A DNA stretch of 32,460 bases. It comes from Bacteroides sp. GTDB lineage: Bacteria; Bacillota; Clostridia; Lachnospirales; Lachnospiraceae. Shown in pieces: positions 1,120-21,052 of this stretch. The notes under the pieces were generated by a model that saw only the letters and a program-made list of their open reading frames with translations, searched no databases and was not told the origin of the DNA. Made by a program: the position numbers and the translations under genes. The stretch covers positions 1 through 32,460 of the forward strand of contig JAMPBO010000006.1 of the NCBI GenBank assembly GCA_023666705.1, read 5' to 3'. The stretch's first letter is position 1. Every line of letters starts with the position of its first letter.

Positions 1120-2172
1120 TTACAACAGCTCCAGCATGGTATTTACCAGCAAATCATTTTGTGAAGGCTTCATAAAGCAGAAGCGTACATATTTGTCGCT
1201 AAGCCCATGGAAGTTTTCGCAATTTCTGATAACGATACCCTTTAATTTGCAGTGTTCTGCAAGCTGGGATGCAGTGACATCCTCCTTCAGGATTTTAATG
1301 AGCATAAAGTTTGCATACGGTTTAAACAGCTTTACATTTTTGTTGGTTGCCATGGCGGAGTAAATAAGATTACGCTCCGTATATATTTGGGAGCGGGACT
1401 GCTCGATATAGCCCTTATCCTTGAAAAGCTCCGTGCAGGCAGCAGCAGTCAAAGTAGAAATGCTGTTTGGCGTTGCTATTTTCTCGGAGAGAGAAAGCAG
1501 CTCCCCGTCGGAAGCGATAGAGTAGCAAAGACGAAGTCCGGGAACGGCAAAAAACTTTGAAATGCTTCGGATGACCGCTATGTTTGTAAAATTATTCACA
1601 AGAGGAGTGCTTGTAAGCTCCTCGTATTGTTCGGTAAATTCAATGTACATTTCGTCTATAACCAGAAATATTTCCAGGGCGTTACATGCCTCGGCAAGTG
1701 TTTCCATATCCTCACGGTTGATAATCTGTGATGTCGGGTTGTTTGGATTTGCGAGAATAATCATATCGTAGGAGGAGTCCAAGGTTTTTATAAAGTCAAC
1801 AACATCAAGCCTGTAGTCCTCGTCCTCGGAGAGCTCATAATAGCAAACCTCGCATCCATACATGGAAAGGGCATCCTCGTGCTCGATTGGTGATGGTGCA
1901 GGAAGCAGGGCTTTTTTTGGGGCAAGCAATGCAGCGTAAAGTCTTAGCATGTCGGAAGAACCACTTCCTAAAATCACGTTTTTATCGTTGCAGCCTATGT
2001 ATGCAGCAATGGATTTTTTCAGGTTGCCATAGTAATCGCCCGGATACCTTATGATGGAATTGATATTTTCGGAAAGTGCCTTCTTAACTAAATCTGGAAT
2101 TCCCATAGGATTTAGGTTGGAATTGTAAAGTACGGTGTCATATTGCTCCAGTCTGAATGGTGTTTTTGCCAT
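1120..2172 (-). CDS. PLP-dependent class I/II aminotransferase, CobD/HisC-like
   Basis: A 350-residue fold-type I PLP enzyme. Visible motifs are ANPNNPT (141-147), the cofactor-pyridine aspartate in VIDEMY (D173), the Schiff-base lysine in SISKFF (K206), an arginine in PGLRLCY (R214) and a C-terminal carboxylate-binding arginine in YVRFCF. The N-terminal YNSNLNPMGIP resembles the SxNxNPxGxP start of threonine-phosphate decarboxylases (CobD) and of histidinol-phosphate aminotransferases. CobD would make aminopropanol phosphate for cobalamin, and HisC would act in histidine synthesis. Neither a cob nor a his operon is next to it, so the substrate is open. The start has AGGAGG 7 bases upstream. 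The gene stands alone on the minus strand, diverging from the DUF5717 operon across 252 bases. Confidence 0.8.
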   Translation of the reverse strand: MAKTPFRLEQYDTVLYNSNLNPMGIPDLVKKALSENINSIIRYPGDYYGNLKKSIAAYIGCNDKNVILGSGSSDMLRLYAALLAPKKALLPAPSPIEHEDALSMYGCEVCYYELSEDEDYRLDVVDFIKTLDSSYDMIILANPNNPTSQIINREDMETLAEACNALEIFLVIDEMYIEFTEQYEELTSTPLVNNFTNIAVIRSISKFFAVPGLRLCYSIASDGELLSLSEKIATPNSISTLTAAACTELFKDKGYIEQSRSQIYTERNLIYSAMATNKNVKLFKPYANFMLIKILKEDVTASQLAEHCKLKGIVIRNCENFHGLSDKYVRFCFMKPSQNDLLVNTMLELL

Positions 2173-2424: not shown

Positions 2425-5400
2425 ATGAAGGGTATTATTGAACATTACGCAAAGGGAGAGTTTACGGTAGACAGACCTGAGGTTGAAATCTCTGAGCAGT
2501 TCTTAAAATTGAACATTGAGTCAGGAACCACCTATACAGGCAGCTTCCGGGTAACCAGTCCAAATGACCATGTCATAAAGGCAATGGTTTATGACAGCAG
2601 GTATATGATTCGGTTTGACGAGCACACATATATCAATAGACGTTTTGATGTAACGTATACATTTGATGCTACGTGTCTTGAGGCAGGAAAAAATTATAAG
2701 GGACACATAAGCATAATATCAGATGGCGGGGAATTTAAAATTCCGTATGACATAGATATTACAACACCATACGTGAAGTATGAGGATCAGAAAATAGACG
2801 ATCTTTTCAAATTTGCAACGCTGGCGGAGAGTAACTGGTCAGAGGCTGTGAAGGTTTTTGTGCGGGAGGATTTCAGGAGAACCTTCATTGATAAGGATCC
2901 GCTTATCAAGCAGATTTATGCAAGCCTTCTTGAGAGCCAGTCTGTCAATCAGGCATTGGAGGAGTTTCTTGTTTATGTGCACAAGAAAAGAGCACTTACC
3001 CTTTCCGTGTCCAAGGCAAAGATAAGCGTTGAGATGCCGTCCGAGCTCTCAAAAATATCCATAAACATAAGTAAAAACACATGGGGATATACCAATTCCC
3101 GTGTTAAATCCATGGATGATTTTATAATACCTGCAAAGAAAGCGATAACGAGCAGTGACTTTTGCGGCAATCTGTTCTCCCTTGATGTTCTGATATCTCC
3201 TGAAAATGTTCCTGACGGGGCAAGCACGGGAAGATTGCTGATTGAAAATATTTATCAGACAATTGAAGTTGAAATTAATCTGTCAAGACCTCAGTCAAAG
3301 ACACATATTTCGCCGAGGTCGGCAAATAAAAACCATATGATAAAAAGCAATAAGGCAAAGCTTGTCAATGCATATTTGGATTATCGGATGGATAGGGCTG
3401 AGCTTAAGGATTATGTGTCAGCTTCCCTTATGGCATTTGGAAACCTTGCAAGATATGTGCCTGAGGAGGGACTTTACCGAATGGGAACAATGCACATGAA
3501 CATTATGCAGGGGGAGCTGGAAAAGGTGGAACAGGAATTTCTCCGAATCGAGGCAGACGTGGACAACACTGTTATGGGTGACATGGAGGAGTGCTATTAT
3601 GCATACCTTAAGGCATTGGTTCAAAAGGACCCTGCAACGATAGAAAACGCAAGAGCCAAGATAAAAAGACATTATAAGACAAAAGACGACAAAATGTTTT
3701 ATTTCTGGCTGTTGCTTTTTATAGACGAGGCATATGCACAGGATCAGGCAGCACTGTACAAGGAAATCAAATATTTGTATGAAAATAATTACAACAGTCC
3801 GGTTATGTACCTTGAGTTTTGCGAGATGCTAAACAACAATCCGCTTCTGCTCAAGAAGATTACAGGATTGGAAATTACCGCAATCAGATGGGGCATCCGA
3901 CACAAATTTGTTTCGGATGAAGTCATTGATGAATTTATAAGACTTGCAGGCTCCTTTAAAAATTTTGATACCCAGATATTTGGTATTATGGAAGCGATCT
4001 ATGATAAGAACAAGAGCATTGAGGTTTTAAAGAGCATATGCTCCATGCTTATCGGTGCGAATAAGCTGGATAATAAGTACCACAGATTTTACTTTGATGC
4101 GGTGGAAAATTCGCTTAAGTTTATCGGGCTGAATGAATGCTTTGTAAAGAGTATGAATTTTTCGAGATACGATGTGATACCGACATCGGTGCTCATGTAT
4201 TTAAACTACAAAAACACGCTTTCAGAGACAGAGCTTGCATACCTTTACGCAAATGTAATCTATAACAAATCACAGCACATGAAAGTCTACCATGAATATT
4301 GTACAACCATGGAGGATTTCATGGAAAACATGATTATAAAGGGAGAGGTCAGTGATGACCTTACGGTTATTTATGATGAATTCCTTGAGCCTGAGTCAGT
4401 CAGCCCGCTTTACGCAGGCAAGCTTGTAAACATTATATTCAGGAGAAAGCTGGTATGCTTCAATAAGGGTGTAAGGGCTGTTATTGTAACACACCGTGAG
4501 ATAGAGGAGGTTCAAAGGGTACCTATCGTGAACGGTGAGGCATACGTTGAAATATTATCCAACACAGCCTCCATCATATTTGAGGACAGTGAGGGCAACC
4601 GGTATGCAGGTTCCATTCCGTACCGCTTGGAGCGTATTGTGGATGAAAAGGCATATCTTCCAATCTGCTGTGAATATAGCCCAAGGGATTACAGGGTTCT
4701 TTTGTACAATTATGAAAAGCTTGGTGATTTCACCTACAAGAAGGCAATTGAGGTAAATGCAGCAAGAGATATTGTAAACTGTGACCGTATTTCATATGAC
4801 TATAAGCAGCAGGCATATTTAAACATTATAGAGTATTACCATGAAAATCTTGATGCCGATGTACTTACAAAGTATCTCGGAAAGCTGGATATCGATTATT
4901 TGAATCACGCAAATGCAAGAACACTGATTGCCTACATGGTAGATATGAATTTGTTTGACAAGGCATTTCAGGCAGTGAAGCTTTACGGCTTTGATGAGAT
5001 AGATTCCGAAGAGCTCTATCAGCTTGCCGATTATGGTGTTGAGGACTCAAACGGATTTGTAAATGAAGACCTGCTTGCCATCTGCGTCCATCTTTACAAG
5101 ATGGGTAAGGTAAATGAACGCATACTCATTTATGTCATGAACAACTTCAAGGGTGATTTGGATGAGCTTGCAGCATTGTTTAAGACTGCCAGAAACCGGA
5201 TACGTGACGTATCATTTTTGGCGGAAAATACATTGGCACAAATGATGTTTGCCATGGGAAATGTAGAATATATATACGATATATTTACTGCATATTACGG
5301 AGGAAGAAGCAGGGGACTTGTCGTAAAGGCATTCCTGCGGTATGCAGCATATAATTACCTCATAAAGGATGTGCAGACACCGACGGGTATTTTTGACTGT

Positions 5401-5991
5401 CTCTATACTGAAATTATGAAGGGTAACATAGATGATGAAATATCAACCATGGCACTTTTGATGCAGTTTGGCAAGATGGAACGATATACGGAGGAGCAAA
5501 AGGCATGGATTGCAGATTCTGTCGGTAAGTTTATGGATGCAGGAAAGCTTTTGCCGTTCTATAAGAGCTTTAAGACATTTATCAAGCTCCCGCAGGATGT
5601 GTTCCTCAAAACATATCTTATTTATAAGAGCGACCCGTCAAAGCAGGTAATGGTCAAATATGCATTTGACACAGGCTCAAGACAGAACCTGACCTATAAG
5701 ACGGAGCGGTTGGATGAGATGGTGCCGGGGCTTTACGTGAAGGAGTTTGTCGTGTTCCATGGCGAGAGACTTGTATATACAGTGGATGATGACGTGGACG
5801 GAAATGCTTATGTGGTGGAGAGCGAGGTACTTAAAACCAAGGCATTTAACCGTAAGGACAGAAGTAGGTTTGAGATTATTAACAGCATGCTTGTAAATCA
5901 GGAAATGCGTGAGGATAATGAGCTTCTTGAGGCATTGGATGTATACCTGAATACAGTTCACTTATTTGAAGAAAATCTCAATATTTTGTAA
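2425..5991 (+). CDS. DUF5717 family protein (giant cytoplasmic scaffold of unknown function)
   Basis: A protein of about 1188 residues that I recognise as DUF5717; its function is unknown. No signal peptide or membrane helix is seen. The sequence alternates beta-sandwich-like segments (roughly 20-120, 200-300, 670-770 and the last 100 or so) with long alpha-helical stretches that look like degenerate TPR/solenoid repeats, suggesting a scaffold. The start is ATG 2425 (MKGIIEHYAKGEF), 5 bases after GGAGG at 2415-2419. The in-frame ATG at 2413 overlaps that ribosome-binding site and is rejected. It is the first gene of a four-gene cassette; the DUF5716 gene follows after 9 bases, with AGGAGG overlapping this stop codon. 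Pairing with an actin/Hsp70-fold protein suggests the two act as a complex (inference). Confidence 0.85.
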   Translation: MKGIIEHYAKGEFTVDRPEVEISEQFLKLNIESGTTYTGSFRVTSPNDHVIKAMVYDSRYMIRFDEHTYINRRFDVTYTFDATCLEAGKNYKGHISIISDGGEFKIPYDIDITTPYVKYEDQKIDDLFKFATLAESNWSEAVKVFVREDFRRTFIDKDPLIKQIYASLLESQSVNQALEEFLVYVHKKRALTLSVSKAKISVEMPSELSKISINISKNTWGYTNSRVKSMDDFIIPAKKAITSSDFCGNLFSLDVLISPENVPDGASTGRLLIENIYQTIEVEINLSRPQSKTHISPRSANKNHMIKSNKAKLVNAYLDYRMDRAELKDYVSASLMAFGNLARYVPEEGLYRMGTMHMNIMQGELEKVEQEFLRIEADVDNTVMGDMEECYYAYLKALVQKDPATIENARAKIKRHYKTKDDKMFYFWLLLFIDEAYAQDQAALYKEIKYLYENNYNSPVMYLEFCEMLNNNPLLLKKITGLEITAIRWGIRHKFVSDEVIDEFIRLAGSFKNFDTQIFGIMEAIYDKNKSIEVLKSICSMLIGANKLDNKYHRFYFDAVENSLKFIGLNECFVKSMNFSRYDVIPTSVLMYLNYKNTLSETELAYLYANVIYNKSQHMKVYHEYCTTMEDFMENMIIKGEVSDDLTVIYDEFLEPESVSPLYAGKLVNIIFRRKLVCFNKGVRAVIVTHREIEEVQRVPIVNGEAYVEILSNTASIIFEDSEGNRYAGSIPYRLERIVDEKAYLPICCEYSPRDYRVLLYNYEKLGDFTYKKAIEVNAARDIVNCDRISYDYKQQAYLNIIEYYHENLDADVLTKYLGKLDIDYLNHANARTLIAYMVDMNLFDKAFQAVKLYGFDEIDSEELYQLADYGVEDSNGFVNEDLLAICVHLYKMGKVNERILIYVMNNFKGDLDELAALFKTARNRIRDVSFLAENTLAQMMFAMGNVEYIYDIFTAYYGGRSRGLVVKAFLRYAAYNYLIKDVQTPTGIFDCLYTEIMKGNIDDEISTMALLMQFGKMERYTEEQKAWIADSVGKFMDAGKLLPFYKSFKTFIKLPQDVFLKTYLIYKSDPSKQVMVKYAFDTGSRQNLTYKTERLDEMVPGLYVKEFVVFHGERLVYTVDDDVDGNAYVVESEVLKTKAFNRKDRSRFEIINSMLVNQEMREDNELLEALDVYLNTVHLFEENLNIL

Positions 5992-6000
5992 GGAGGCAAT

Positions 6001-7254
6001 ATGGCAGAGGCATATTACATAGGAATGGATTTGTGTTCGGACTCAACGCAGATAAGCTTTTACAATGATATAAAGCGTGAGCCTGAGACAGTAAACCAAT
6101 TAAATAATAAAGAGACATACATGATGCCAAACATCTTGTTCTTCAGCAGGGATACAGGGGATTGGTATGTGGGCTCTGAGGCGTCGGAGGCGAGATTTAA
6201 GGAGGATGGTATTGTTCTTGATGAGCTGTACAAAAATGCCACAAGCGAGGCGATTGTCGATGTGGACGGCATGAGCTACAGCTACAAGCAATTGTTCCTT
6301 ATGATGCTAAAGATGCATATTGACTCTTTTTTGTACAGGTATGAGGGAGCAACGGTAAAAAAGCTGGTTGTCACACTCCCTGAATACAACAAGAGCCTGT
6401 TTAAGGTGGTCACGGGACTTTACAGGGAAATTAATATACCTGAGGATTGTATCAACATCACAAGCCATTTGGACAGTGGACTTTACTACATCTTTAACCA
6501 GAGCAGTGACCTTTGGACAAACAGTGTCGGTCTTTTCGATTACAACACGGACGGACTTCACTATTACAGGATAGATATATCAAGAAGCAAGGAACCAAAC
6601 CTGATTAGTGTGACGCACATGGATTATAGCAAGGACTTTAACATGGCACTTTTTGCGGGGGACAACATTTTGATGGATGCGTCCTTTGCAAAAATAGCAG
6701 AGGCGGAAATGAAGAAGACATACATATCTTCTGTATTTCTGACAGGCTTGGGATTTTCTGAAAAGTGGATGAATAAGTCGAGAAATATTCTTTGTCAGGG
6801 CAGGCGGGTTTTTGCCGGGCAGAATATATATACAAAGGGAGCGTGCTACAAGGCTGTCGGCGGTGAGTACGAGGAGTTTTACCAGAAATATTTTGTCGAG
6901 ACAAAGGAAAATGTTATTTTTGATATCGGAATATCAAGCGGTGATGAGGACGACAAATTTATTCCGATAGCTTTAGGCGGAAGGCAATGGTACAACATAA
7001 AGGGAAAAATCAATATTATACTGGATGATACTGACACAATCACACTTGTGTACAGGAGCAGAAGAACGGAGCAGGAAATCAGGGAGGTTGTGAAGCTTCA
7101 TGGAATTCCGAAAAGACCGAATAAGACCTCTAAGTTTTCCGTTGAGGTTGAGTTCGAAAATCCGCACAGAGGAGCAGTAGTTATAAAGGATGTTGGCTTT
7201 GGTAAGCTTTTCCCAACGACCAACAAGGTTTATCGTAAGGAGTTTGAGGTATAA
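6001..7254 (+). CDS. DUF5716 family protein, divergent actin/Hsp70-fold ATPase-like
   Basis: A 417-residue protein with a degenerate Hsp70/actin fold. The phosphate-1 loop is GMDLCSDSTQISFY (8-21; Hsp70 has GIDLGTT there). A phosphate-2-like strand VGLFDYNTDGLHYYRI carries D180 but lacks the glycines of DxGGGT. An adenosine-type motif NIYTKGACYKAVGG lies at about 275-288 and follows a LTGLGF motif. The last 85 residues or so are beta-rich and could be a small substrate- or partner-binding domain. Nucleotide binding is plausible; hydrolysis is uncertain because the phosphate-2 glycines are missing. The start has an ideal AGGAGG. The stop TAA shares one base with the ATG of the next gene, implying translational coupling with the TPR protein. 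Confidence 0.82.
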   Translation: MAEAYYIGMDLCSDSTQISFYNDIKREPETVNQLNNKETYMMPNILFFSRDTGDWYVGSEASEARFKEDGIVLDELYKNATSEAIVDVDGMSYSYKQLFLMMLKMHIDSFLYRYEGATVKKLVVTLPEYNKSLFKVVTGLYREINIPEDCINITSHLDSGLYYIFNQSSDLWTNSVGLFDYNTDGLHYYRIDISRSKEPNLISVTHMDYSKDFNMALFAGDNILMDASFAKIAEAEMKKTYISSVFLTGLGFSEKWMNKSRNILCQGRRVFAGQNIYTKGACYKAVGGEYEEFYQKYFVETKENVIFDIGISSGDEDDKFIPIALGGRQWYNIKGKINIILDDTDTITLVYRSRRTEQEIREVVKLHGIPKRPNKTSKFSVEVEFENPHRGAVVIKDVGFGKLFPTTNKVYRKEFEV

Positions 7255-8087
7255 TGTCAAAGATTATATTATGTACAACGAAAGAAGCGACCAATCCGTT
7301 TATTTTCCTCAACACAAAGGTTGAGATAAATACTTATGAGGAGCTTTGCTTCTATATATACAATAATACGGTTCTCATAAGCAAATCCTCGCTTTCTGAC
7401 AAGCTGTTTGACTGGATTCGGGATGAGCTTGATATGCCTGCACTGGCAGCTAAATTAAGTGCACTTTCCAACAAGACACCTTTTGCACAGGATTTGCTTG
7501 TGGAAATATTAAACGAGGGTGATTACTATGAGCCTGAGGAGATTAAAACCTATGTGGAAGCATGCCAGAAATACAGGAAGCTGAACAAGTGCCAAAGGAA
7601 GAAGCTCAAGGCAGATGCATACCTTGGATATAGGAGATATATAAAGGCGGCATCCATATATGATGATATCATAGAAAATCCTGAGGATATCCCTGACAGG
7701 GAATTTCTTGGAAACGTATATCACAACAGGGCGGTTGCGGCGGCGAACAATCTGGATACGGAGGATGCAAAAAAATATTTCTTAAAAGCATATGAGTTAA
7801 ATGACAACGAGGAATCCTTGAGAGGATATCTTATCGTATTTGCAGCAGGAAATGACTCCACAAATATAAGGCAGGAAATGCGTAGGTATGATTTGGATGA
7901 TGATGCGTTTGAAAGCCTTATGCTTGAGATAGGCGACTCCAATGAGGATGTGCGGGAAATGACGATTTTCTCCATGCTTCAAAGAGCCGTTTACAACAGA
8001 ATGAATAAGGATATGATAGATTATGACAAGAGAATGGATATTATTCTCGGTCAATTAAAGGATGGGTTTAGGGAGCAGGCAATTTAA
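7254..8087 (+). CDS. TPR-like protein of the DUF5716/DUF5717 cassette
   Basis: A 277-residue soluble protein. The first 60 residues or so (KIILCTTKEATNPFIFLN...) form a mixed alpha/beta segment I do not recognise. Residues about 105-210 are helical with tetratricopeptide character: ADAYLGYRRYIKAASIYDDI, then GNVYHNRAVAAANNLDTEDA and KKYFLKAYELNDNEESLRGY. TPR proteins are common co-chaperones or adaptors, which fits a neighbour with an Hsp70/actin fold. The start ATG overlaps the upstream TAA by one base, and its own TAA overlaps the next ATG the same way, so three genes are read in tight coupling. No signal peptide or membrane segment. The specific role is unknown. Confidence 0.72.
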   Translation: MSKIILCTTKEATNPFIFLNTKVEINTYEELCFYIYNNTVLISKSSLSDKLFDWIRDELDMPALAAKLSALSNKTPFAQDLLVEILNEGDYYEPEEIKTYVEACQKYRKLNKCQRKKLKADAYLGYRRYIKAASIYDDIIENPEDIPDREFLGNVYHNRAVAAANNLDTEDAKKYFLKAYELNDNEESLRGYLIVFAAGNDSTNIRQEMRRYDLDDDAFESLMLEIGDSNEDVREMTIFSMLQRAVYNRMNKDMIDYDKRMDIILGQLKDGFREQAI

Positions 8088-9475
8088 TGGGTTTGATAGA
8101 CAAAATCAGAAGCTATCTGAACGAGGATGAACAGGGGGAACCAAGGCTTTCCGCTGAGGATAACGAGGCAAAGAAAAAATTTGCCGCATCCATATCCTCT
8201 GATTTGGATAAAGAGACGGATGCTGAACAAAAAAACAAGCAAAGCAGCAATAAGAAACGCCCGGCGGGCGGTTTATTTTCCGTGTTCCGAAGAAAAAATA
8301 AAAACAACCCCAAAGCTCAAACAGAAGAAGAAAGCAAGACAAAACGCTCACCTGCAGAGGTGAATCCTGAGCTTTATAACAGCATACAGGAACAGGGTGC
8401 ATCAAAGGATGAGCGAAAGTCGGCACAGGATTTCTGTGAGCAGTTAATTGATGTCACCTACCATATGGAAGATATGAAACGGGAGTATAAGCTTGTGACA
8501 AGCTACCTGATTGACATACAGAAAATCGAGGAGCTTCCGGAGGATATGGCAAATGATTTGGCAGAAAATGCCAGAAGAATAGAGATGCTGAATGAAGACA
8601 AAAGCAAGTACATCCAGTCGGAGAAGCTGCTTCCAATGGAACGGTACAATGCGATGGCATCACTGGAAAAGGATGTGCCAAGTACCATAAAAAAGCTGAT
8701 TGACATGGAAGCGAGGGATAACCTTCTGAAAAATGACATGAGTTATCTGGAGGGAGAAAAGGAAGACCTCAAATTTATGCATCAGGAATATAATGAAAGT
8801 ATATCAAGGATACGAAGCATGACGGCAGTGGTGCTCACATTATTTTTAATTATCGTAGGCATCATGCTTATTTTTGCGGTCACCACAAAGAAAAGCGTCA
8901 CGGTGTATTGTCTCGCTATATTTCTTGCTGCAATGATTTTCTTTGCGGCGGCTTATGCAAAATATAAGTCACTGAAAACAGAGATAGCAGAAAATGATGC
9001 GAAGCTGAATCGGGCGATTTCGCTTTTAAATAAGGTTAAGGTCAAGTTTATCAACAATACAAATACGCTTGATTATATATATGAAAAATATGGGGTCAAT
9101 TCGTCAAATGAGCTGGAATACCAGTGGGACCAGTACAACACTATGGTTCGTGATGCGTTAAGGTATTCACAGGCGAACAATGATTTGCGGGTCTACAGCG
9201 ATGAGCTGATTAGCAAGCTGAAAACCTATGGTATAGAGGATCCGTTTGTCTGGCCAAAGCAGACAATGGCACTGATTGACAGCCGCGAGATGGTGGAAAT
9301 CAAGCATGGTCTTAATGTCAGAAGACAGAACATCAGGGAAAAGCTTGTTACCTGTGAAAAAATAAAGACAAATGCAGGGACAGCACTTCGTGCTGCCATA
9401 GATGCAAACCCGGGACTGGCGGCATATATAAATGATTTGCTTGCATCCTACAACATTAAGCTTGGGGAACAATAA
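8087..9475 (+). CDS. Membrane coiled-coil protein of the DUF5716/DUF5717 cassette
   Basis: A 462-residue protein. The first 120 residues or so are charged and low in complexity (many K, E, S; likely disordered, with a basic patch KKRPAGGLFSVFRRKNKNN). Residues about 120-240 are heptad-like coiled coil. Two adjacent transmembrane helices follow (about 247-266 and 271-290, split by TTKKS), and then a second long coiled coil (about 290-460). The two helices form a hairpin, so both coiled coils should face the same side, probably the cytoplasm. The TAATG overlap with the TPR gene couples their translation. It is the natural membrane anchor for a complex with the three upstream products (inference). 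I recognise no named family. valS starts 44 bases further on. Confidence 0.72.
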   Translation: MGLIDKIRSYLNEDEQGEPRLSAEDNEAKKKFAASISSDLDKETDAEQKNKQSSNKKRPAGGLFSVFRRKNKNNPKAQTEEESKTKRSPAEVNPELYNSIQEQGASKDERKSAQDFCEQLIDVTYHMEDMKREYKLVTSYLIDIQKIEELPEDMANDLAENARRIEMLNEDKSKYIQSEKLLPMERYNAMASLEKDVPSTIKKLIDMEARDNLLKNDMSYLEGEKEDLKFMHQEYNESISRIRSMTAVVLTLFLIIVGIMLIFAVTTKKSVTVYCLAIFLAAMIFFAAAYAKYKSLKTEIAENDAKLNRAISLLNKVKVKFINNTNTLDYIYEKYGVNSSNELEYQWDQYNTMVRDALRYSQANNDLRVYSDELISKLKTYGIEDPFVWPKQTMALIDSREMVEIKHGLNVRRQNIREKLVTCEKIKTNAGTALRAAIDANPGLAAYINDLLASYNIKLGEQ

Positions 9476-9519
9476 GACAAATTACGGATGAATGAAATAT
9501 ATTGGAGGATAGGAACATC

Positions 9520-12216
9520 ATGGCTAAGGAACTTGAAAAAAATTATAACCCGTCTGAGATTGAAGGAAGACTATATGACAAGTGGGTTGAAAAAAAATAT
9601 TTTCATGCGGAGGTTGACAGAAGTAAAAAACCGTTTACGATTGTTATGCCGCCGCCAAATATAACGGGGCAGCTTCATATGGGACATGCCCTTGACAACA
9701 CGATGCAGGACATTCTCATCAGATTTAAGCGGATGCAGGGTTACAATGCACTTTGGCAGCCGGGCACGGACCATGCGGCTATCGCCACAGAGGTTAAATT
9801 GATTGAAAACCTGAGGGAAAAAGGAATTGAAAAAGAAGACCTGGGACGTGAAGGCTTTTTAGAGAAGGCATGGGAATGGAAGGCAGAGTACGGTGGACGT
9901 ATTATTAACCAGCTTAAGCGGATGGGCTCATCTGCTGATTGGGACAGAGAGCGTTTCACCATGGACGAGGGCAATAACAAGGCAGTTACGGAGGTGTTCT
10001 GCAAGCTTTATGACAAGGGCTATATCTATAAAGGCTCACGTATTGTAAACTGGTGCCCTGTCTGTCAGACCTCTATTTCAGATGCAGAGGTTATCCATGA
10101 GGAGCAGCAGGGATTTTTCTGGCATATTAATTATCCTGTTGCAGGCGAGGAAGGAAGATTTGTTGAGATTGCTACCACAAGACCGGAGACACTCCTTGGA
10201 GATACAGCTGTCGCTGTAAATCCTGAGGATGACAGATATAAGAGCCTGATAGGAAAAAATGTTATTTTGCCACTTGTAAATAAAGAAATTCCTGTAGTTG
10301 CAGATTCTTATGTTGATATGGAATTTGGAACGGGTGTTGTTAAAATTACGCCTGCCCATGATCCGAATGACTTTGAGGTGGGTAAGAGACATAACCTTGA
10401 GGAAATTAATATTATGAATGACGATGCTACCATAAACTCCCTTGGCGGTAAATACGCAGGTATGGACCGGTATGAGGCGAGAAAGGCTATGGTGGAGGAC
10501 CTTGATAAGCTGGGACTTTTGGTTAAGGTTGAGCCGCACACACATATGGTTGGAACCCATGACAGGTGTAAGACGGTAGTTGAGCCGCTTATTAAACCAC
10601 AATGGTTTGTGAAGATGTCTGAGATGGCAAAGCCTGCAAAGGAGGCTGTTGTAAACGGAACACTCAAGCTGATACCGGAAAGAATGGATAAGACCTATTA
10701 CAACTGGCTGGACAACATCAGGGACTGGTGTATATCGAGACAGCTCTGGTGGGGACACAGAATACCTGCCTATTATTGTCAGAATTGTGGGGAGGTTATC
10801 GTTGCAAAGGAAAAGCCATGCAACTGTCCGAAGTGTAACGGTACGGAACTAAAGCAGGATGAGGATACCCTTGATACATGGTTTTCTTCTGCACTTTGGC
10901 CGTTTTCTACCTTGGGATGGCCGGAAAAGACAGAGGAGATGGATTATTTCTTCCCTACGGATGTACTTGTAACGGGATATGATATTATTTTCTTCTGGGT
11001 AATCCGGATGGTATTTTCTTCTATTGAGCAAACGGGAAGGCTTCCGTTTTCTACGGTTCTGTTCCATGGTCTTGTAAGGGATGACAAGGGAAGAAAAATG
11101 AGTAAGTCACTTGGAAATGGCATTGACCCGCTGGAGGTTATTGATAAATATGGTGCCGATGCATTGCGGTTTACGCTTGTTACAGGAAATGCACCGGGAA
11201 ATGATATGCGTTTTTATTGGGAGAGAGTTGAGGCAAGCCGAAACTTTGCCAATAAAATATGGAATGCATCCAGATTTATTTTGATGAATATTGAAAAGGC
11301 AGATATCGGTGAGGTTGCACTTTCTGACCTTACCATTGCGGACCGCTGGATTCTTTCCAAAATGAATGACCTGATTGTTGAGGTTACGGAAAACATGGAG
11401 AAGTATGAGCTGGGAATTGCAGTCTCCAAGCTTTATGATTTCCTTTGGGAGGAATTTTGTGACTGGTATATCGAGATGGTGAAGCCAAGGCTTTGGAATG
11501 ATGAGGATGAGACAAAGGCGGCTGCACTTTGGACACTGAAGAAGGTGCTCACGAACGGACTGAAACTGTTGCATCCGTATATGCCGTTCGTCACGGAGGA
11601 AATATTTGTCACCTTAAATGAGGCGGCAAACGCAAAGCCTGACAACAAGGTTTACAATGGAGGAATGTCTGATATTGCGGAGTCCATTATGATTTCTGCA
11701 TGGCCTGTTTATGAGGAAGGATACAGTTTTAAGGCAGACGAGGAGGCTGTGGATAAGCTTAAAGAGGCTGTGAGAGGCATCCGAAATATAAGAAGTGAAA
11801 TGAATGTTGCCCCAAGCAAAAAGGCAACGGTATATGTTGTTTCGCCAAAGAACGAAATAAGGGATATTTTTGCGGCGAGCAAGACATTTTTCGCCACGCT
11901 TGGATATGCAAGTGATGTTATGATACAGGAGGATAAGACGGGAATCGCCGACGATGCCGTTTCGGTTGTTATCCATGATGCGGTTATTTACATGCCGTTT
12001 GCAGAGCTTGTGGATATTGCCAAGGAGCTTGAGCGTCTGAATAAGGAAAAAGACAGACTGATGGGCGAGATAAAGCGTGCATCAAATATGCTGTCAAATC
12101 CTAAATTTGTGGACAAGGCTCCTGCGGCTAAGGTTGAGGAAGAAAAAGCGAAGCTTAAGAAATATACGGAAACTCTGGAGCAGGTAGAGGAGAGACTTTC
12201 ACAGTTGGGAGCATAA
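9520..12216 (+). CDS. valS: Valyl-tRNA synthetase
   Basis: A class I aminoacyl-tRNA synthetase charging tRNA-Val; about 898 residues, a normal bacterial length. The signature sequences are intact: [18 protein letters not shown] with HMGH at 53-56, and KMSKS at 526-530 ([13 protein letters not shown]). The editing domain region is present ([17 protein letters not shown]). A CxxC...CxxC zinc knuckle (YYCQNCGE...CNCPKCN) precedes the GTDLD-like segment. The last 60 residues or so form the usual ValS C-terminal coiled coil. The start ATG 9520 ([11 protein letters not shown]) follows GGAGGATAGGA. The in-frame TTG at 9502 lies just before that site and is rejected. Firmicute valS often has a T-box leader; none is visible here, because the gene sits only 44 bases behind the DUF5716/5717 cassette. 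Confidence 0.97.
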
Positions 12217-12217
12217 T

Positions 12218-14263
12218 ATGAACAACGAAAAAATCCTGAAAAAGAAAATAGAAAAATACCTGTTGGGACCTATGGCTGCACAGCTTGTTTTGGTTGTGAT
12301 GTGCATTGCATTGTTTTTTATTGATAAAAAATGTGCACTTGTAGCTACAATCGTCACGGTTGGAGTTATCATAGGAGAGGTTATCAATTATTATGTATCC
12401 AAGGCAAGCGTTCTGCCCACACTTATGAGCTTTGCACTGGAGCAGGGACAGATACAGAAGGAGCTCCTCAATGAGCTGGCAGTCCCGTATGCACTGATTG
12501 ACACGGACGGTAAAATACTGTGGGGAAACAAGCAGTTTATTTCCAAGGTAGGAGACGGTTCAAAGAAAAAAATCAGAAAGAACATTGCCACCTTTTTTCC
12601 ACAGGTTGCCGCTGAGATAATCGGTGTCAAGGATGTAATCAATCTTGATTTGGAATATAAGGATGCAAGCTATGTGGCGGAAATTAAAAAAATAGAGCTG
12701 GATGAGATTTTCGATGATGAGGACACGGTTGTATCTACAAACGGGGAGGCATTGATTGCACTGTATCTGTTTGATGTTACGGAGCTGAACCACTATAAGC
12801 GTGAAAACAAGGAGCAAAAGCTGGTTGCGGGTCTTTTGTATATCGATAATTATGATGAGGTAATGGAAAATACGGAGGAGGTTCGCCATGCATTGGTTGA
12901 AGCATTAGTTGACCGACGGATTAACATGTACCTTGGAAGCATTGACGCCATTGTCAAGAAAATGGAAAAGGATAAATACCTGTTTGTGTTCCGCCAGAAA
13001 TTTCTCCCGCAGCTTAAGGAGACAAAGTTTGCTATTCTTGATGAGGTTAAGAGTATCAATGTGGGAAATGAAATTCCAATCACCTTAAGCATTGGTGTAG
13101 GTGCCGAGACGGAAAGCTTTATGGAGGCATATGAGTATGCACGTGTTGCCATGGGACTTGCCCTTGGACGTGGTGGGGATCAGGCAGTCGTAAAGCATGG
13201 GGAGAAGATACTTTACTTTGGCGGAAAGAGTGGTGGAACGGAGAAGACCACAAGAGTCAGGGCGAGAGTGAAAGGACAGGCATTTACCGAGCTTTTGAAT
13301 GATAAAAACCGCGTTATCATTATGGGACATAAGAGACCTGATGCAGATGCCTTTGGCTCTGCCGTAGGTGTTTATAGACTTGTAAAATCCTTTAACAAGG
13401 ATGCCCATATTGTTATCAATGAGGTTACCTCTGCCATTCGGCCTGTGATAAGCAGCTTCAAGGGTAACAGCTTATATGGTGACGACATGATATATAACAG
13501 TGAGCAGGCGATAAGCTGTATTGACGACAAAACGCTGGTTGTGGTTGTTGATGTCAACAGACCAAGCATGACGGAATGTGAGGAGCTTTTGTCCCTTGCA
13601 AAGTCGGTTGTGGTGTTTGACCATCACAGACAGACAAATGAAACAATTGAAAATGCTACGCTGTCATACATTGAGCCGTATGCATCCTCCGCCTGTGAAA
13701 TGGTTGCGGAAATGATGCAGTACATTGACGTGAAGGTGAAGATAAGACCGGTTGAGGCAGATGCAATGTATGCAGGTATTGTAATAGACACGGATAACTT
13801 TGTGACCAAAACGGGCGTCAGAACCTTTGAGGCTGCTTCGTATCTTAGAAGGAACGGTGCGGATGTTGTCAGGGTCAGAAAAATGTTCCGGAGCGACATG
13901 TACTCCTTTAAGCAGCTTGCAGAGGGTGTTATCAATTCAGAGACTTATATGGGTGTTTTTGCATTGTCGAAAGTAAGACCTGAGCAGTCGGATGCACCTA
14001 CAGTTGTTGCCGCAAAGGTTGCAAATGAGCTGTTAAATGTAGAGGGTGTCAGGGCTTCCTTTGTCGTTACGGAACATGGAGGTACTTCGTATATCAGTGC
14101 CCGTTCTGTGGATGATATTAATGTTCAGGTTATTATGGAGAAGCTTGGCGGAGGCGGACACGCCAATATAGCGGGAGCACAGCTTAAGGATGTTTCGGAT
14201 ACGGATGCACTGGAAAAAATTAAGCAGCTTCTGGATGAAATGTACAAGGCAGGAGATATATAG
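12218..14263 (+). CDS. gdpP: Cyclic-di-AMP phosphodiesterase GdpP (YybT family)
   Basis: A 681-residue membrane enzyme that hydrolyses c-di-AMP to pApA. Domain order: two N-terminal transmembrane helices (about 15-65), a PAS domain (about 80-185), a degenerate GGDEF domain (about 190-340, ending LGRGGDQAVV, where GGDQ replaces GGDEF as in YybT), and a DHH/DHHA1 phosphodiesterase. The catalytic metal ligands are visible: H371, D375 and D377 in GHKRPDADAFGS, and D468-H469-H470 in VVFDHHRQT. The C-terminal GGGGHANIAGAQ is intact. The start follows GGGAG and lies one base after the valS stop. Order gdpP-rplI-dnaB matches Bacillus yybT-rplI-dnaC. Confidence 0.95.
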   Translation: MNNEKILKKKIEKYLLGPMAAQLVLVVMCIALFFIDKKCALVATIVTVGVIIGEVINYYVSKASVLPTLMSFALEQGQIQKELLNELAVPYALIDTDGKILWGNKQFISKVGDGSKKKIRKNIATFFPQVAAEIIGVKDVINLDLEYKDASYVAEIKKIELDEIFDDEDTVVSTNGEALIALYLFDVTELNHYKRENKEQKLVAGLLYIDNYDEVMENTEEVRHALVEALVDRRINMYLGSIDAIVKKMEKDKYLFVFRQKFLPQLKETKFAILDEVKSINVGNEIPITLSIGVGAETESFMEAYEYARVAMGLALGRGGDQAVVKHGEKILYFGGKSGGTEKTTRVRARVKGQAFTELLNDKNRVIIMGHKRPDADAFGSAVGVYRLVKSFNKDAHIVINEVTSAIRPVISSFKGNSLYGDDMIYNSEQAISCIDDKTLVVVVDVNRPSMTECEELLSLAKSVVVFDHHRQTNETIENATLSYIEPYASSACEMVAEMMQYIDVKVKIRPVEADAMYAGIVIDTDNFVTKTGVRTFEAASYLRRNGADVVRVRKMFRSDMYSFKQLAEGVINSETYMGVFALSKVRPEQSDAPTVVAAKVANELLNVEGVRASFVVTEHGGTSYISARSVDDINVQVIMEKLGGGGHANIAGAQLKDVSDTDALEKIKQLLDEMYKAGDI

Positions 14264-18432: not shown

Positions 18433-18481
18433 TTATATAAAATATCAGGATAAGTAGAACACAAGCAAGGAGGTGTGTTTG

Positions 18482-21052
18482 GTGCAGAAGTATGCAGTGG
18501 AAGGAATGACCTGTGCAGCATGCAGCGGTCATGTTGAGAAGGCTGTCGGCAAAGTGGAAGGTGTAAGCAGTGTTGTTGTAAGCCTTCTTACAAATTCCAT
18601 GACGGTAGAAGGAACTGCATCCGCAGAAGATATTATAGCAGCAGTGGAAAAGGCGGGCTATGGAGCCTCTCTTTATGATGATGAAAACCGGATTGAAAGG
18701 AAAGACGCCAAGGCAGAGCCGGTGGGTGTCCTTGAGGATAAGGAAACCCCTAAAATAAGAATGCGGTTTATTATTTCTCTTATTTTTTTGATACCGCTTA
18801 TGTATCTCTCAATGGGACACATGATGTGGGATTGGCCAATTCCCGAAATTTTGCAGGACAACTACATTGCCATAGGATTAATCCAGCTTTTGTTTACGGT
18901 TATCATAATGGTCATAAATCAACGGTTTTTTGTGAGTGGATTTACCAGCATGATACACGGTGCACCGAACATGGACACTCTTGTCGCGATGGGAGCTGCC
19001 GCATCGTTCGGTTATAGTGTATATGCATTGTTTGCGATGACAGATGCAGCGATACATGGAACAGGACATGATGTCATGCATTACCTGCATGAATTTTATT
19101 TTGAGTCGGCGGCAACGATTCTCACGCTGATAACACTGGGAAAAATGTTAGAGGCATATTCCAAGGGCAGAACCACTGACGCATTAAAGAGCCTGATTTC
19201 CCTTGCACCGAAGCAGGCAACAGTAATCAGGGATGGCAGGGAAAAACTGGTCGTTGTTGATGAGCTTTTGGTAGGAGATATATTTGTTGTGCGGCCGGGC
19301 GAGAGCATACCTGTAGACGGCATTGTTCTTGAGGGAAACAGTGCAGTGGATGAATCAGTGCTTACAGGGGAGAGTATTCCCGTGGATAAGGAGCCGGGAG
19401 CTGTTGTGTCGGCAGCAACGATAAACCGTTCAGGATTTATAAAATGTGAAGCTACGCATGTAGGGGCAAATACAACACTATCACAGATTATAAAGATGGT
19501 GAGCGATGCGGCGGCAACAAAGGCACCGATTGCCAAGATAGCGGATAAGGTGTCAGCCGTGTTTGTACCTGCAGTCATTACAATTGCAGTCATCACCATT
19601 TTGGTCTGGCTTTTGGTTGGAAAATCAGTCGGATTTGCACTTGCAAGAGGAATTGCGGTACTGGTTATAAGCTGTCCGTGTGCACTTGGACTTGCAACAC
19701 CGGTTGCAATTATGGTAGGAAACGGAATGGGTGCAAAGCATGGGATTTTATTTAAAACTGCCGTATCCCTTGAAATGGCAGGACGTACAAATGTGATTGC
19801 ACTTGATAAAACAGGTACGATAACGAAAGGAACGCCTGTCGTCACGGATGTGATTCCCGTAAATGGAACAGACGAAGCGACACTGATTGAATATGCATAT
19901 GCGTTGGAGAGCAGGAGTGAGCATCCGTTGGCAAAGGCTGTCATGGCATATTATGATGAATGGGCAGCAGGTGTGAGCAATCAGGATAGTGCACACACGG
20001 ATGCGGTTGAGGATTTTAAAATATATTCTGGCAATGGGCTTGGTGCAAGGATTGGCAGGCAGAATGTTTATGGTGGAAATCTGAACTATATCGGGCAACA
20101 CTGCAAGATAGATGCCAAAACAAGAAGCAAAGTAGAGGAGCTTTCCCAAAACGGGAAAACACCGCTTGTATTTGCCGCTGATAAGCTGTTGGGAATTATA
20201 GCAGTTGCCGACGAGATTAAGGAGGACAGTATTTTTGCCATAAAGAGATTGAGGGAAATGGGACTTAAAGTGGTAATGCTTACGGGAGACAATGAAAGGA
20301 CGGCAAATGCCATAGGAAGGCAGGTCGGTGTGGATGAGGTTATTGCAGGGGTATTGCCTGATGGTAAGGAAAAGGTAATCAGAGATATCAAAAAGAATGA
20401 AAAAACCTATGTGGCAATGGTAGGTGACGGCATAAACGATGCACCTGCACTGACAAGAGCAGATGTGGGAATTGCCATAGGTGCCGGAACAGACGTGGCA
20501 ATTGATGCGGCAGATGTTGTTCTTATGAAAAGCAGCCTTATGGATGTTGTAACCGCAATTTGTCTCAGCCGCAAGACGCTTAAAAATATACATCAAAATT
20601 TATTTTGGGCATTTTTCTATAATACAATCGGTATTCCACTGGCGGCGGGAGTGTGGTATCCTATATTTGGCTGGACGTTAAATCCTATGTTTGGGGCGGC
20701 GGCAATGAGTCTGTCGAGCTTTTGCGTCATAACAAATGCACTTAGATTGAATTTGTTTAAGCCTGAAAATATCTGCGAAGCTGATAACAACAATAATGAA
20801 ATTAATCATGTTGAAATAAAGGAAATGAAGGAGGAGAATAACATGACAAAAACAATTAACATTGAGGGAATGATGTGTGGACACTGTGAGGCGTCCGTTC
20901 AGAAGGCACTGGAGGCAATCAGTGGTGTGGAAGCTGCAGAGGTAAGCCACGAGAAGGGAACTGCAGTCGTAACATTATCTTCAGAGGTAGCGGATGATAT
21001 CTTAAAAACTGCGGTCGAAGAAAAAGACTATAAGGTTACAGGGATTGCATAG
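18482..21052 (+). CDS. copA: Copper-translocating P1B-type ATPase with fused C-terminal CopZ-like domain
   Basis: About 856 residues. It begins with a heavy-metal-associated domain (MTCAACSGH; C11 and C14), followed by eight transmembrane helices. The P-type ATPase machinery is complete: the TGES region (VLTGESIPVD), the copper CPC motif C398-P399-C400 in SCPCALGLATP, phosphorylation site D442 in DKTGT, SEHPLAK, and GDGIND at about 648-653. The CPC motif and HMA cysteines identify Cu(I) export. After the last helix a charged linker (about 755-787) leads to a second HMA domain (MMCGHC; C799 and C802), an unusual C-terminal place. The start GTG 18482 follows AAGGAGG by 8 bases; the earlier in-frame GTG 18473 overlaps that site. 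The C-terminal domain has its own start, listed separately. Confidence 0.93.
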   Translation: MQKYAVEGMTCAACSGHVEKAVGKVEGVSSVVVSLLTNSMTVEGTASAEDIIAAVEKAGYGASLYDDENRIERKDAKAEPVGVLEDKETPKIRMRFIISLIFLIPLMYLSMGHMMWDWPIPEILQDNYIAIGLIQLLFTVIIMVINQRFFVSGFTSMIHGAPNMDTLVAMGAAASFGYSVYALFAMTDAAIHGTGHDVMHYLHEFYFESAATILTLITLGKMLEAYSKGRTTDALKSLISLAPKQATVIRDGREKLVVVDELLVGDIFVVRPGESIPVDGIVLEGNSAVDESVLTGESIPVDKEPGAVVSAATINRSGFIKCEATHVGANTTLSQIIKMVSDAAATKAPIAKIADKVSAVFVPAVITIAVITILVWLLVGKSVGFALARGIAVLVISCPCALGLATPVAIMVGNGMGAKHGILFKTAVSLEMAGRTNVIALDKTGTITKGTPVVTDVIPVNGTDEATLIEYAYALESRSEHPLAKAVMAYYDEWAAGVSNQDSAHTDAVEDFKIYSGNGLGARIGRQNVYGGNLNYIGQHCKIDAKTRSKVEELSQNGKTPLVFAADKLLGIIAVADEIKEDSIFAIKRLREMGLKVVMLTGDNERTANAIGRQVGVDEVIAGVLPDGKEKVIRDIKKNEKTYVAMVGDGINDAPALTRADVGIAIGAGTDVAIDAADVVLMKSSLMDVVTAICLSRKTLKNIHQNLFWAFFYNTIGIPLAAGVWYPIFGWTLNPMFGAAAMSLSSFCVITNALRLNLFKPENICEADNNNNEINHVEIKEMKEENNMTKTINIEGMMCGHCEASVQKALEAISGVEAAEVSHEKGTAVVTLSSEVADDILKTAVEEKDYKVTGIA
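20843..21052 (+). CDS. copZ: Embedded copZ-like copper chaperone with internal ribosome-binding site
   Basis: In frame with copA, AGGAGG (20829-20834) sits 8 bases before an ATG at 20843. From there a 69-residue HMA protein is encoded (MTKTINIEGMMCGHCEASV; C12 and C15), exactly the size of a free CopZ chaperone. CopZ delivers Cu(I) to CopA. Independent initiation would yield both the ATPase with a tethered chaperone domain and free chaperone from one reading frame. The alternative is a simple gene fusion in which the old copZ ribosome-binding site remains by chance. The sequence shows the start site; use of it is inferred. Confidence 0.6.
   Translation: MTKTINIEGMMCGHCEASVQKALEAISGVEAAEVSHEKGTAVVTLSSEVADDILKTAVEEKDYKVTGIA

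Follow-up and report, generated by a model that had tools for sequence, protein, structure and literature searches.

A Family-Wide Lachnospiraceae Cassette with a Pseudo-Hsp70 (DUF5716), Read as the Remnant of a Multi-Hsp70 Operon

Introduction

The locus considered here is a cassette of four co-directional open reading frames (ORFs), A, B, C and D in this order, which spans positions 2425-9475 of a 32,460-nucleotide stretch of Lachnospiraceae DNA (contig JAMPBO010000006.1), the whole of which is called the window. A is a DUF5717 protein, B a DUF5716 protein, C a TPR protein and D a two-helix membrane protein, and the closest described systems contain Hsp70 proteins. In the DnaK-DnaJ-GrpE system, an ATP-cycling Hsp70 is expected to need a J-domain protein, and subdomain IIB is the part of DnaK that is contacted by GrpE in DnaK-GrpE structures. 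Ssz1, a member of the ribosome-associated complex of eukaryotes, is an atypical Hsp70 that, according to the part of PMC8476630 used here, is lidless, hydrolyses ATP poorly or not at all and holds a partner complex. The second theme of the GAP1-N2 systems, in the portion of Kaur et al. (2020, PMC7159879) drawn on, comprises an HSP70, a GrpE and an FNIII protein to which a DnaJ or TPR part is fused, and a subset has a second HSP70 without the peptide-binding domain. In the relevant part of PMC11090510, CnuD of the multi-gene bacterial restriction system CoCoNuT combines a degenerate Hsp70 nucleotide-binding domain (NBD) and substrate-binding domain (SBD) with helical repeats. The main text of a survey of DnaK duplications (PMC11019930) contains neither "Clostridi" nor "DUF" in a word search. 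For the Pfam families DUF5716 and DUF5717, of which the window proteins are members, Pfam gives no function. The open literature searched yielded no paper on DUF5717 or on the function of either family; DUF5716 is named in a single paper on an unrelated subject. These searches do not imply that nothing has been published.

Based on profile comparisons and on the orthologous loci of other families of the same order (the sister families), DUF5716 is assigned here to Hsp70, and the cassette is read as what a whole family has retained, in reduced form, of a dedicated multi-Hsp70 operon, where the pseudo-Hsp70 B was kept as a fixed structural piece, with a probability of roughly 0.6. The sister operon encodes three intact Hsp70s and the window B only, and the window cassette is therefore regarded as a reduced multi-Hsp70 operon. 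B and its three sister paralogues resemble DnaK in having an NBD and an SBD-beta, and the operon has its own GrpE-domain protein. In contrast to the DnaK system, the Hsp70s of one sister operon (L226) are lidless, a vWA domain replacing the lid in one of them, a scan of this operon and five flanking genes revealed no J-domain protein, and window-type B is devoid of the catalytic residues and of IIB. With its SBD-beta-like domain and missing lid, Ssz1 is functionally the closest counterpart of an Hsp70 that neither has a lid nor cycles; according to the same part of PMC8476630, however, it is able to bind ATP and its partner at the ribosome is a J-protein, whereas no J-protein is in sight for B. 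The combination of a degenerate Hsp70 with helical repeats recalls CnuD, but neither a McrBC GTPase nor a partner of the nuclease or RNase kind described for CoCoNuT in that portion of PMC11090510 was found at the cassette.

Assignment of DUF5716 to Hsp70

B (417 aa; 6001..7254, + strand) matches DUF5716_C (E 1.4e-93), and A matches DUF5717_N (E 6.9e-282) and DUF5717 (E 3.4e-66), all above the curated Pfam cut-offs, which bears out the family names given in the initial annotation. A PDB search with a profile of 32 diverse Bs returned DnaK at E 4.3e-9; six DnaK chains lay below 1e-6 and no other chains did, and actin, MreB and FtsA chains were absent from the 13 matches at E up to 5. In hhalign, residues 17-415 of B align collinearly with residues 4-467 of DnaK over the NBD and SBD-beta (pairwise E 7.2e-10). 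B scored 81.7 against 30 DnaKs (a usable protein was obtained from 30 of 31 DnaK loci) and never more than 23.0 when the columns of the DnaK profile were shuffled (30 shuffles). Against proteins of its own genome, the score was 68.1 for DnaK alone, 57.4 for the second Hsp70 and 29.3 for the two MreBs, which make up the cytoskeletal side of this comparison. The C-terminal half of B, an SBD-beta-like domain (residues 291-417; 6871..7251, + strand), scored 34.6 against the DnaK SBD alone, the best of 50 shuffles reaching 25.7 and the next 18.4. Among the Bs of sister families, DUF5716_C was matched by 20/20 and HSP70 (PF00012) by 17/20, and PF00012 was not among the Pfam families matched by the 32 window-type Bs scanned one by one.

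By these profile comparisons, B is specifically an Hsp70, consisting of NBD and SBD-beta and devoid of the ATPase residues, subdomain IIB and the lid. The initial description of B as a divergent Hsp70/actin-fold protein thus stands for the Hsp70 superfamily and is narrowed by the profile scores to Hsp70 proper, while an actin/MreB identity is rejected because the two MreBs score far below DnaK. Matches of B to the RnlB antitoxin (0.016) and to SMI1 (0.42) were also set aside, each occurring in only one of 32 members. Profile comparisons among A, B, C and D detected no mutual similarity, and the profiles of A, C and D gave no match to the GrpE protein of the sister operons.

Loss of the ATPase Parts in B

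Eight catalytic residues (D8, T11, T12, K70, E171, D194, T199 and D201) were compared in a joint alignment whose columns were set by the DnaK of the window's own genome; the residue numbers are taken to be those of E. coli DnaK. The table was built from ORFs of plausible full length, comprising 32 of the 41 window-type Bs and proteins of the first 20 sister loci, with 17 of the 21 ORFs labelled Hsp70b, the rest being fragments. Window-type B keeps 0-3 of the eight residues in all 32 sequences. D8 (27/32) and D194 (22/32) are mostly kept, as is G6 (32/32), and T11, K70 and E171 (each 0/32), T12 (4/32), and T199 and D201 (each 1/32) are mostly lost. The phosphate loops described in the initial annotation were recovered, namely a phosphate-1-like GxD and an adenosine-like LTGxGF that are kept and a phosphate-2 GGGT that is missing. 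The B of sister families retains 2-3 of the eight residues (20/20); K70, T12, T199 and D201 are found in 0/20, T11 and E171 in 3/20, and D194 in 19/20. Based on this alignment, sister B is already a pseudo-Hsp70, and the nucleotide site of window B is probably gone.

The stretch corresponding to IIB measures 86 residues in DnaK, 76-85 in sister B (20/20) and only 10-20 in window-type B. B stops at the end of SBD-beta and has no alpha-helical lid (SBD-alpha), and several members are also without a further stretch of lobe I. Columns conserved in at least 80% of the sequences are commoner outside lobe I, with 13/125 in lobe II and 9/127 in the SBD-like half against 6/165 in lobe I.

The Operon of the Sister Families

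DUF5716 relatives were found in 71 of the 146 genomes of an order-wide draw (66 above the family cut-off); 15 of these genomes belong to the window's family, and 56, mostly with two matches each, to 13 other families. The sister set assembled for comparison consists of 31 loci from 11 families, a further locus (L248) belonging to the window's family and holding A-B-C only. The gene order in the sister families is A, Hsp70a, a GrpE-domain protein, B, Hsp70b, Hsp70c/vWA and C, in some cases followed by D and valS. This full order is present on one strand in 21 of the 31 loci, with median gaps of 3-31 bp and with unlabelled small ORFs between some genes. D follows C in 7/31 loci and valS follows D in 5/31. 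Of the first 20 sister loci, 6 also have a homologue of the window's aminotransferase ahead of A, likewise divergent (BLAST). By these shared flanks, the sister and window cassettes occupy the same chromosomal place.

The sister loci, which the initial annotation had overlooked, thus contain a GrpE-domain protein and, beyond B, three Hsp70s whose catalytic residues are intact. All eight catalytic residues and GGG are kept in Hsp70a (18/18), Hsp70b (17/17) and Hsp70c (14/14). In L226, the four Hsp70s have no helical lid, as judged from length and Pfam coverage; Hsp70a and Hsp70b end at SBD-beta, and Hsp70c runs into a vWA domain, which is found at the end of all 14 full-length Hsp70c sequences. 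The vWA of Hsp70c (residues about 504-650 in L226 and 13 more) sits in the place of the lid, and its consensus holds DTTGSM, a motif resembling that of the metal ion-dependent adhesion site (MIDAS). The GrpE proteins have lengths of 279-644 aa and match PF01025 in 18/18 scanned, these being 18 of 20 proteins from the first 20 sister loci. In six of six genomes, the operon GrpE is additional to the canonical GrpE.

The Scaffold Protein A

A (1188 aa; 2425..5991, + strand) is the constant partner of B. Its residues 6-305 align with the sister gene A1 (hhalign E 4.5e-40) and its residues 313-1186 with the sister gene A2 (E 3.6e-83), A1 and A2 being separate genes in many sister loci; on the strength of these alignments, window A is a fusion of an A1-like and an A2-like gene. 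Residues 1-118 share homology with residues 193-292 (E 4e-9). The helical-repeat part (residues about 313-1186; 3361..5982, + strand) gave weak TPR signals only, with TPR_19 in 2/34 members and a GmaR chain at E 0.0018. The Ig-like label for A is a by-eye reading, and no search assigned such a fold. The start of A is placed at the ATG at 2425, with GGAGG 5 bases before it, and an in-frame ATG also occurs at 2413.

An acidic low-complexity insert of 74-163 residues follows window residue 529 of A in 22/52 relatives (alignment A6, L105-L148 range). D is nearby in 0/22 of the insert-bearing relatives; among those without the insert, 26 have D and four have neither. All insert-bearing As fall in one clade, so the cases of insert and D loss are not independent.

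Distribution of the Cassette in Lachnospiraceae

In a draw of 120 family genomes that counts the window's own, DUF5716 was found in 117, in single copy in each, and DUF5717 in 116. Leaving out the own genome, as in all adjacency counts (n=119), both A and B are present in 115 genomes, neither in three and B alone in one. In 112 of these 115, A is the gene immediately before B, the remaining three having it on another contig. A set of 41 loci, composed of 40 loci of up to 20 kb from the family and other draws and of the window itself, contains A in 40/41, C in 40/41 (36 as a separate gene and four fused to B) and D in 16/41. The set of 80 named close relatives has A ahead of B in 78 cases and C after B in 78, all four exceptions being located at contig ends; D is present in 33/80. 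The D profile matched 54/120 genomes, of which about 53 carry D; with the own genome left out (n=53), the match is just downstream of B in 51, on another contig in one, and a weak match elsewhere in one. The genes beyond the cassette vary and are of housekeeping type (valS, gltX, pheT, purine genes and a solute-binding protein). A-B-C is near-universal and D occurs in fewer than half of the genomes; A-B-C is thus considered the unit, and D an optional addition. The co-inheritance of A, B and C was accordingly upheld across the family draw, whereas the four-gene co-occurrence put forward in the initial annotation holds for the TPR gene and mostly not for the membrane gene, so that D does not qualify as an integral fourth part.

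C (277 aa; 7254..8087, + strand) has a conserved N-terminal domain (about 1-110) followed by TPR (about 112-230). Its Pfam signal is a sub-threshold TPR (0.0038), and its family profile matches TPR structures with a best E of 9.4e-45. The fusion of B and C, for which the label needs two changes on the tree, argues for their physical association. D (462 aa; 8087..9475, + strand) has nothing above the curated Pfam cut-offs; the window protein has two hydrophobic stretches 5 residues apart by hydropathy, and two such stretches with a loop of 3-13 residues occur in 16/16 D sequences, including that of the window. Profile and hydropathy thus agree with the initial labels of C as a TPR protein and D as a two-helix membrane protein. 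A GapS6a match of C (0.0044) and matches of D to DUF2721, DUF6594 and others were rejected as lying under the curated cut-offs.

The gene order and the TAATG joints recorded in the initial annotation agree with the ORF coordinates. B/C (7252..7256, + strand) and C/D (8085..8089, + strand) each overlap by one base through this stop/start sequence, and A and B are separated by 9 bp. In the named close relatives, the -1 overlap is found in 48/78 B/C pairs and 22/33 C/D pairs, compared with 2/53 for valS/gdpP and 2/78 for A/B, as counted from first in-frame, uncurated starts.

Direction of Change

In a quick tree of B rooted with Hsp70b, the 41 window-type Bs form one clade (Shimodaira-Hasegawa-like approximate likelihood-ratio support, 99). 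The closest branch to this clade is the B of G606 (f187; 99), followed by the B of G717 (f203; 98, long branch), and both of these Bs come from full operons. At E up to 1e-4, the ORFs in the 41 family loci included no Hsp70a, Hsp70b or Hsp70c and no GrpE protein of this kind. The other Hsp70s found in the own genome, DnaK and a 564-aa protein, scored 134-304 bits on the sister models against 915-1396 for true members, and they are therefore not regarded as orthologues of Hsp70a, Hsp70b or Hsp70c. Based on the tree position and on the family loci, the simplest reading is that the three active Hsp70s and GrpE were lost on the branch to the window's family, and that B lost IIB there. As sampled, then, a single branch saw the disappearance of the active subunits together with the exchange factor and the IIB of B, and the scaffold stayed near-universal.

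The sister DUF5717 profile matched 16 genomes of the own family and gave nine weak matches among 391 class genomes, and the three other-family genomes of the same order in this class draw were all negative. DUF5716 gave no match beyond the family in draws of 196 genomes of the class and 299 of the phylum. As far as these draws reach, the system thus seems restricted to the order.

Proposed Role and Alternative Explanations

A, B and C are kept in both forms and the ATPase parts in the sister form only, which is the basis for reading B as a structural subunit. Of what an ATP-driven cycle requires, the sister form is short of nothing but a visible J-protein. The complete operon may encode an ATP-driven assembly in which the lidless Hsp70s act on the large scaffold A and are recharged by the operon's own GrpE, with C as a TPR organiser and D as a membrane tether in some lineages. 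In the window's family, the ATP cycle would have been dropped, with B clamped to C, to which it is sometimes fused, and to A, and lobe II of B and its SBD-beta-like half could provide the working surface. The A-B-C complex would be cytoplasmic, and located at the membrane where D is present; its role may be housekeeping assembly or holding, not stress folding or defence. The window complex would thus most likely be a scaffold that is static, in part tethered to the membrane, and derived from an ATP-driven ancestor. A wider proposal, advanced tentatively at somewhat less than even odds, is that the order possesses a new kind of Hsp70 machine, in which four lidless Hsp70s (three active and one pseudo) form a fixed hetero-array with a dedicated GrpE fusion, a two-part giant scaffold, a TPR organiser and sometimes a membrane tie, which one family made ATP-free and which is still needed by nearly every member of that family. 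On the remnant reading, two Pfam families of unassigned function, which almost all genomes sampled from a dominant gut family carry, obtain an origin, DUF5716 as a disabled Hsp70 and DUF5717 as its constant scaffold partner. Because the sister operons look like the working version, the function could be addressed by comparing the ATP-driven form with its ATP-free descendant.

Several observations weigh against the remnant reading. The direction of loss rests on a quick, long-branched tree and on the deletions in B, not on a species tree. Ten of the 31 sister loci are incomplete or split, several being cut by contig or region ends; L255 (G617, family f198) has A-B only, and L254 (G671, f198) has A-Hsp70a-GrpE-B, with a further match of G671 on another contig. 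No J-domain protein accompanies the L226 operon within the genes scanned. In addition, D is missing from more than half of the window's family, the three genomes with neither A nor B (G029, G091 and G098) are 93-99% complete, and G020 (67% complete, 1.2 Mb) has B without A or C nearby (L055, 11089-12318, - strand), next to a gene that presumably is pyrG.

The alternatives concern what B does and which form came first. The initial annotation favoured an ATP-driven chaperone or an actin-like cytoskeletal assembly with D as its membrane anchor, which would fit the placement of B in the Hsp70 superfamily by sequence, the retention of G6, D8 and D194 at the frequencies given above, and the membrane nature of D; the near-complete loss of T11, T12, K70, E171, T199 and D201 and of the IIB stretch, an MreB score far under that of DnaK and the optional nature of D make it very unlikely. 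Alternatively, B might regulate the housekeeping DnaK, either as an exchange factor like yeast Sse or as a partner like Ssz1, after recruitment by A and C. Ssz1 offers a precedent for a lidless, non-cycling Hsp70 in a stable complex (in the part of PMC8476630 used), and a canonical DnaK is encoded in the own genome. Such a role is nevertheless unlikely, given that Ssz1 and Sse still bind ATP in the account of this source, that B lost most nucleotide-loop residues along with IIB, and that no J-domain partner was seen in the cassette by Pfam. The direction could also be reversed, with A-B-C(-D) ancestral and three Hsp70s and GrpE gained in the sister families, as the short A-B form of L255, seen in one sister genome, might suggest. 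This is highly improbable because sister B is nearer to Hsp70, by its HSP70 matches and its IIB stretch, because window B has further deletions, and because the nearest tree relatives of the window clade (f187 and f203) carry the full operon.

A conflict system, serving anti-phage defence or self-recognition and related to the GAP1-N2 GTPase systems, would share common part types with the sister operon, namely several Hsp70s, GrpE, TPR, vWA and repeats that are beta-rich by eye; in the portion of PMC7159879 drawn on, HSP70, GrpE, a second HSP70 and TPR are co-encoded, and vWA occurs in related themes. In contrast to those systems, the seven proteins of the L226 operon and five flanking genes (L226, L217) had no Pfam match to a GTPase, GAP1 or FNIII, and none of these, nor a DnaJ, was found in the window proteins, the L226 operon or its five flanking genes. 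HSP70, GrpE and TPR are all present in the sister families, the TPR as a separate protein and with no FNIII found; the TPR described in that source is fused to the FNIII protein. The cassette is near-universal and occurs once per genome in the family (117/120), its tree looks vertical and its neighbours are of housekeeping type. PADLOC returned no matches for six of seven proteins and, for Hsp70c, a weak PDC-M61B match (27 bits) over the Hsp70 part, and A had no plasmid match. A conflict role is thus quite unlikely, and the defence reading was set aside, the PADLOC, plasmid and phage searches having given nothing specific. A general Hsp70 query matched 37 phage records, the annotated ones among the matches listed being HscA or DnaK.

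Flanking Genes and Other Features of the Window

The cassette is flanked upstream by the divergent aminotransferase that marks the locus (1120..2172, - strand; Pfam Aminotran_1_2, E 2.8e-45) and downstream by valS (9514..12216, + strand; Pfam). The initial annotation had placed the cassette directly upstream of valS and dnaB, which is correct for valS; dnaB, a name assigned by eye like that of rplI, is presumably the third gene after it. Constitutive and high expression, as proposed there, found no support. Promoter-like sites in the window are at chance level (43 against 44.7 in shuffles) and terminator-like sites are about at chance (15 against 11.6, standard deviation 3.1), so no statement on cassette expression is possible. 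Rfam gave nothing over the window at gathering thresholds, and no T-box is therefore seen ahead of A or valS. The gene after valS, gdpP (12218-14263, + strand), encodes a GdpP-like cyclic di-AMP phosphodiesterase with GGDEF_GdpP, DHH and DHHA1 domains by Pfam. Further downstream, positions 18473-21052 (+ strand) encode a copper-type heavy-metal P-type ATPase with CopZ-like metal-binding domains at both ends.

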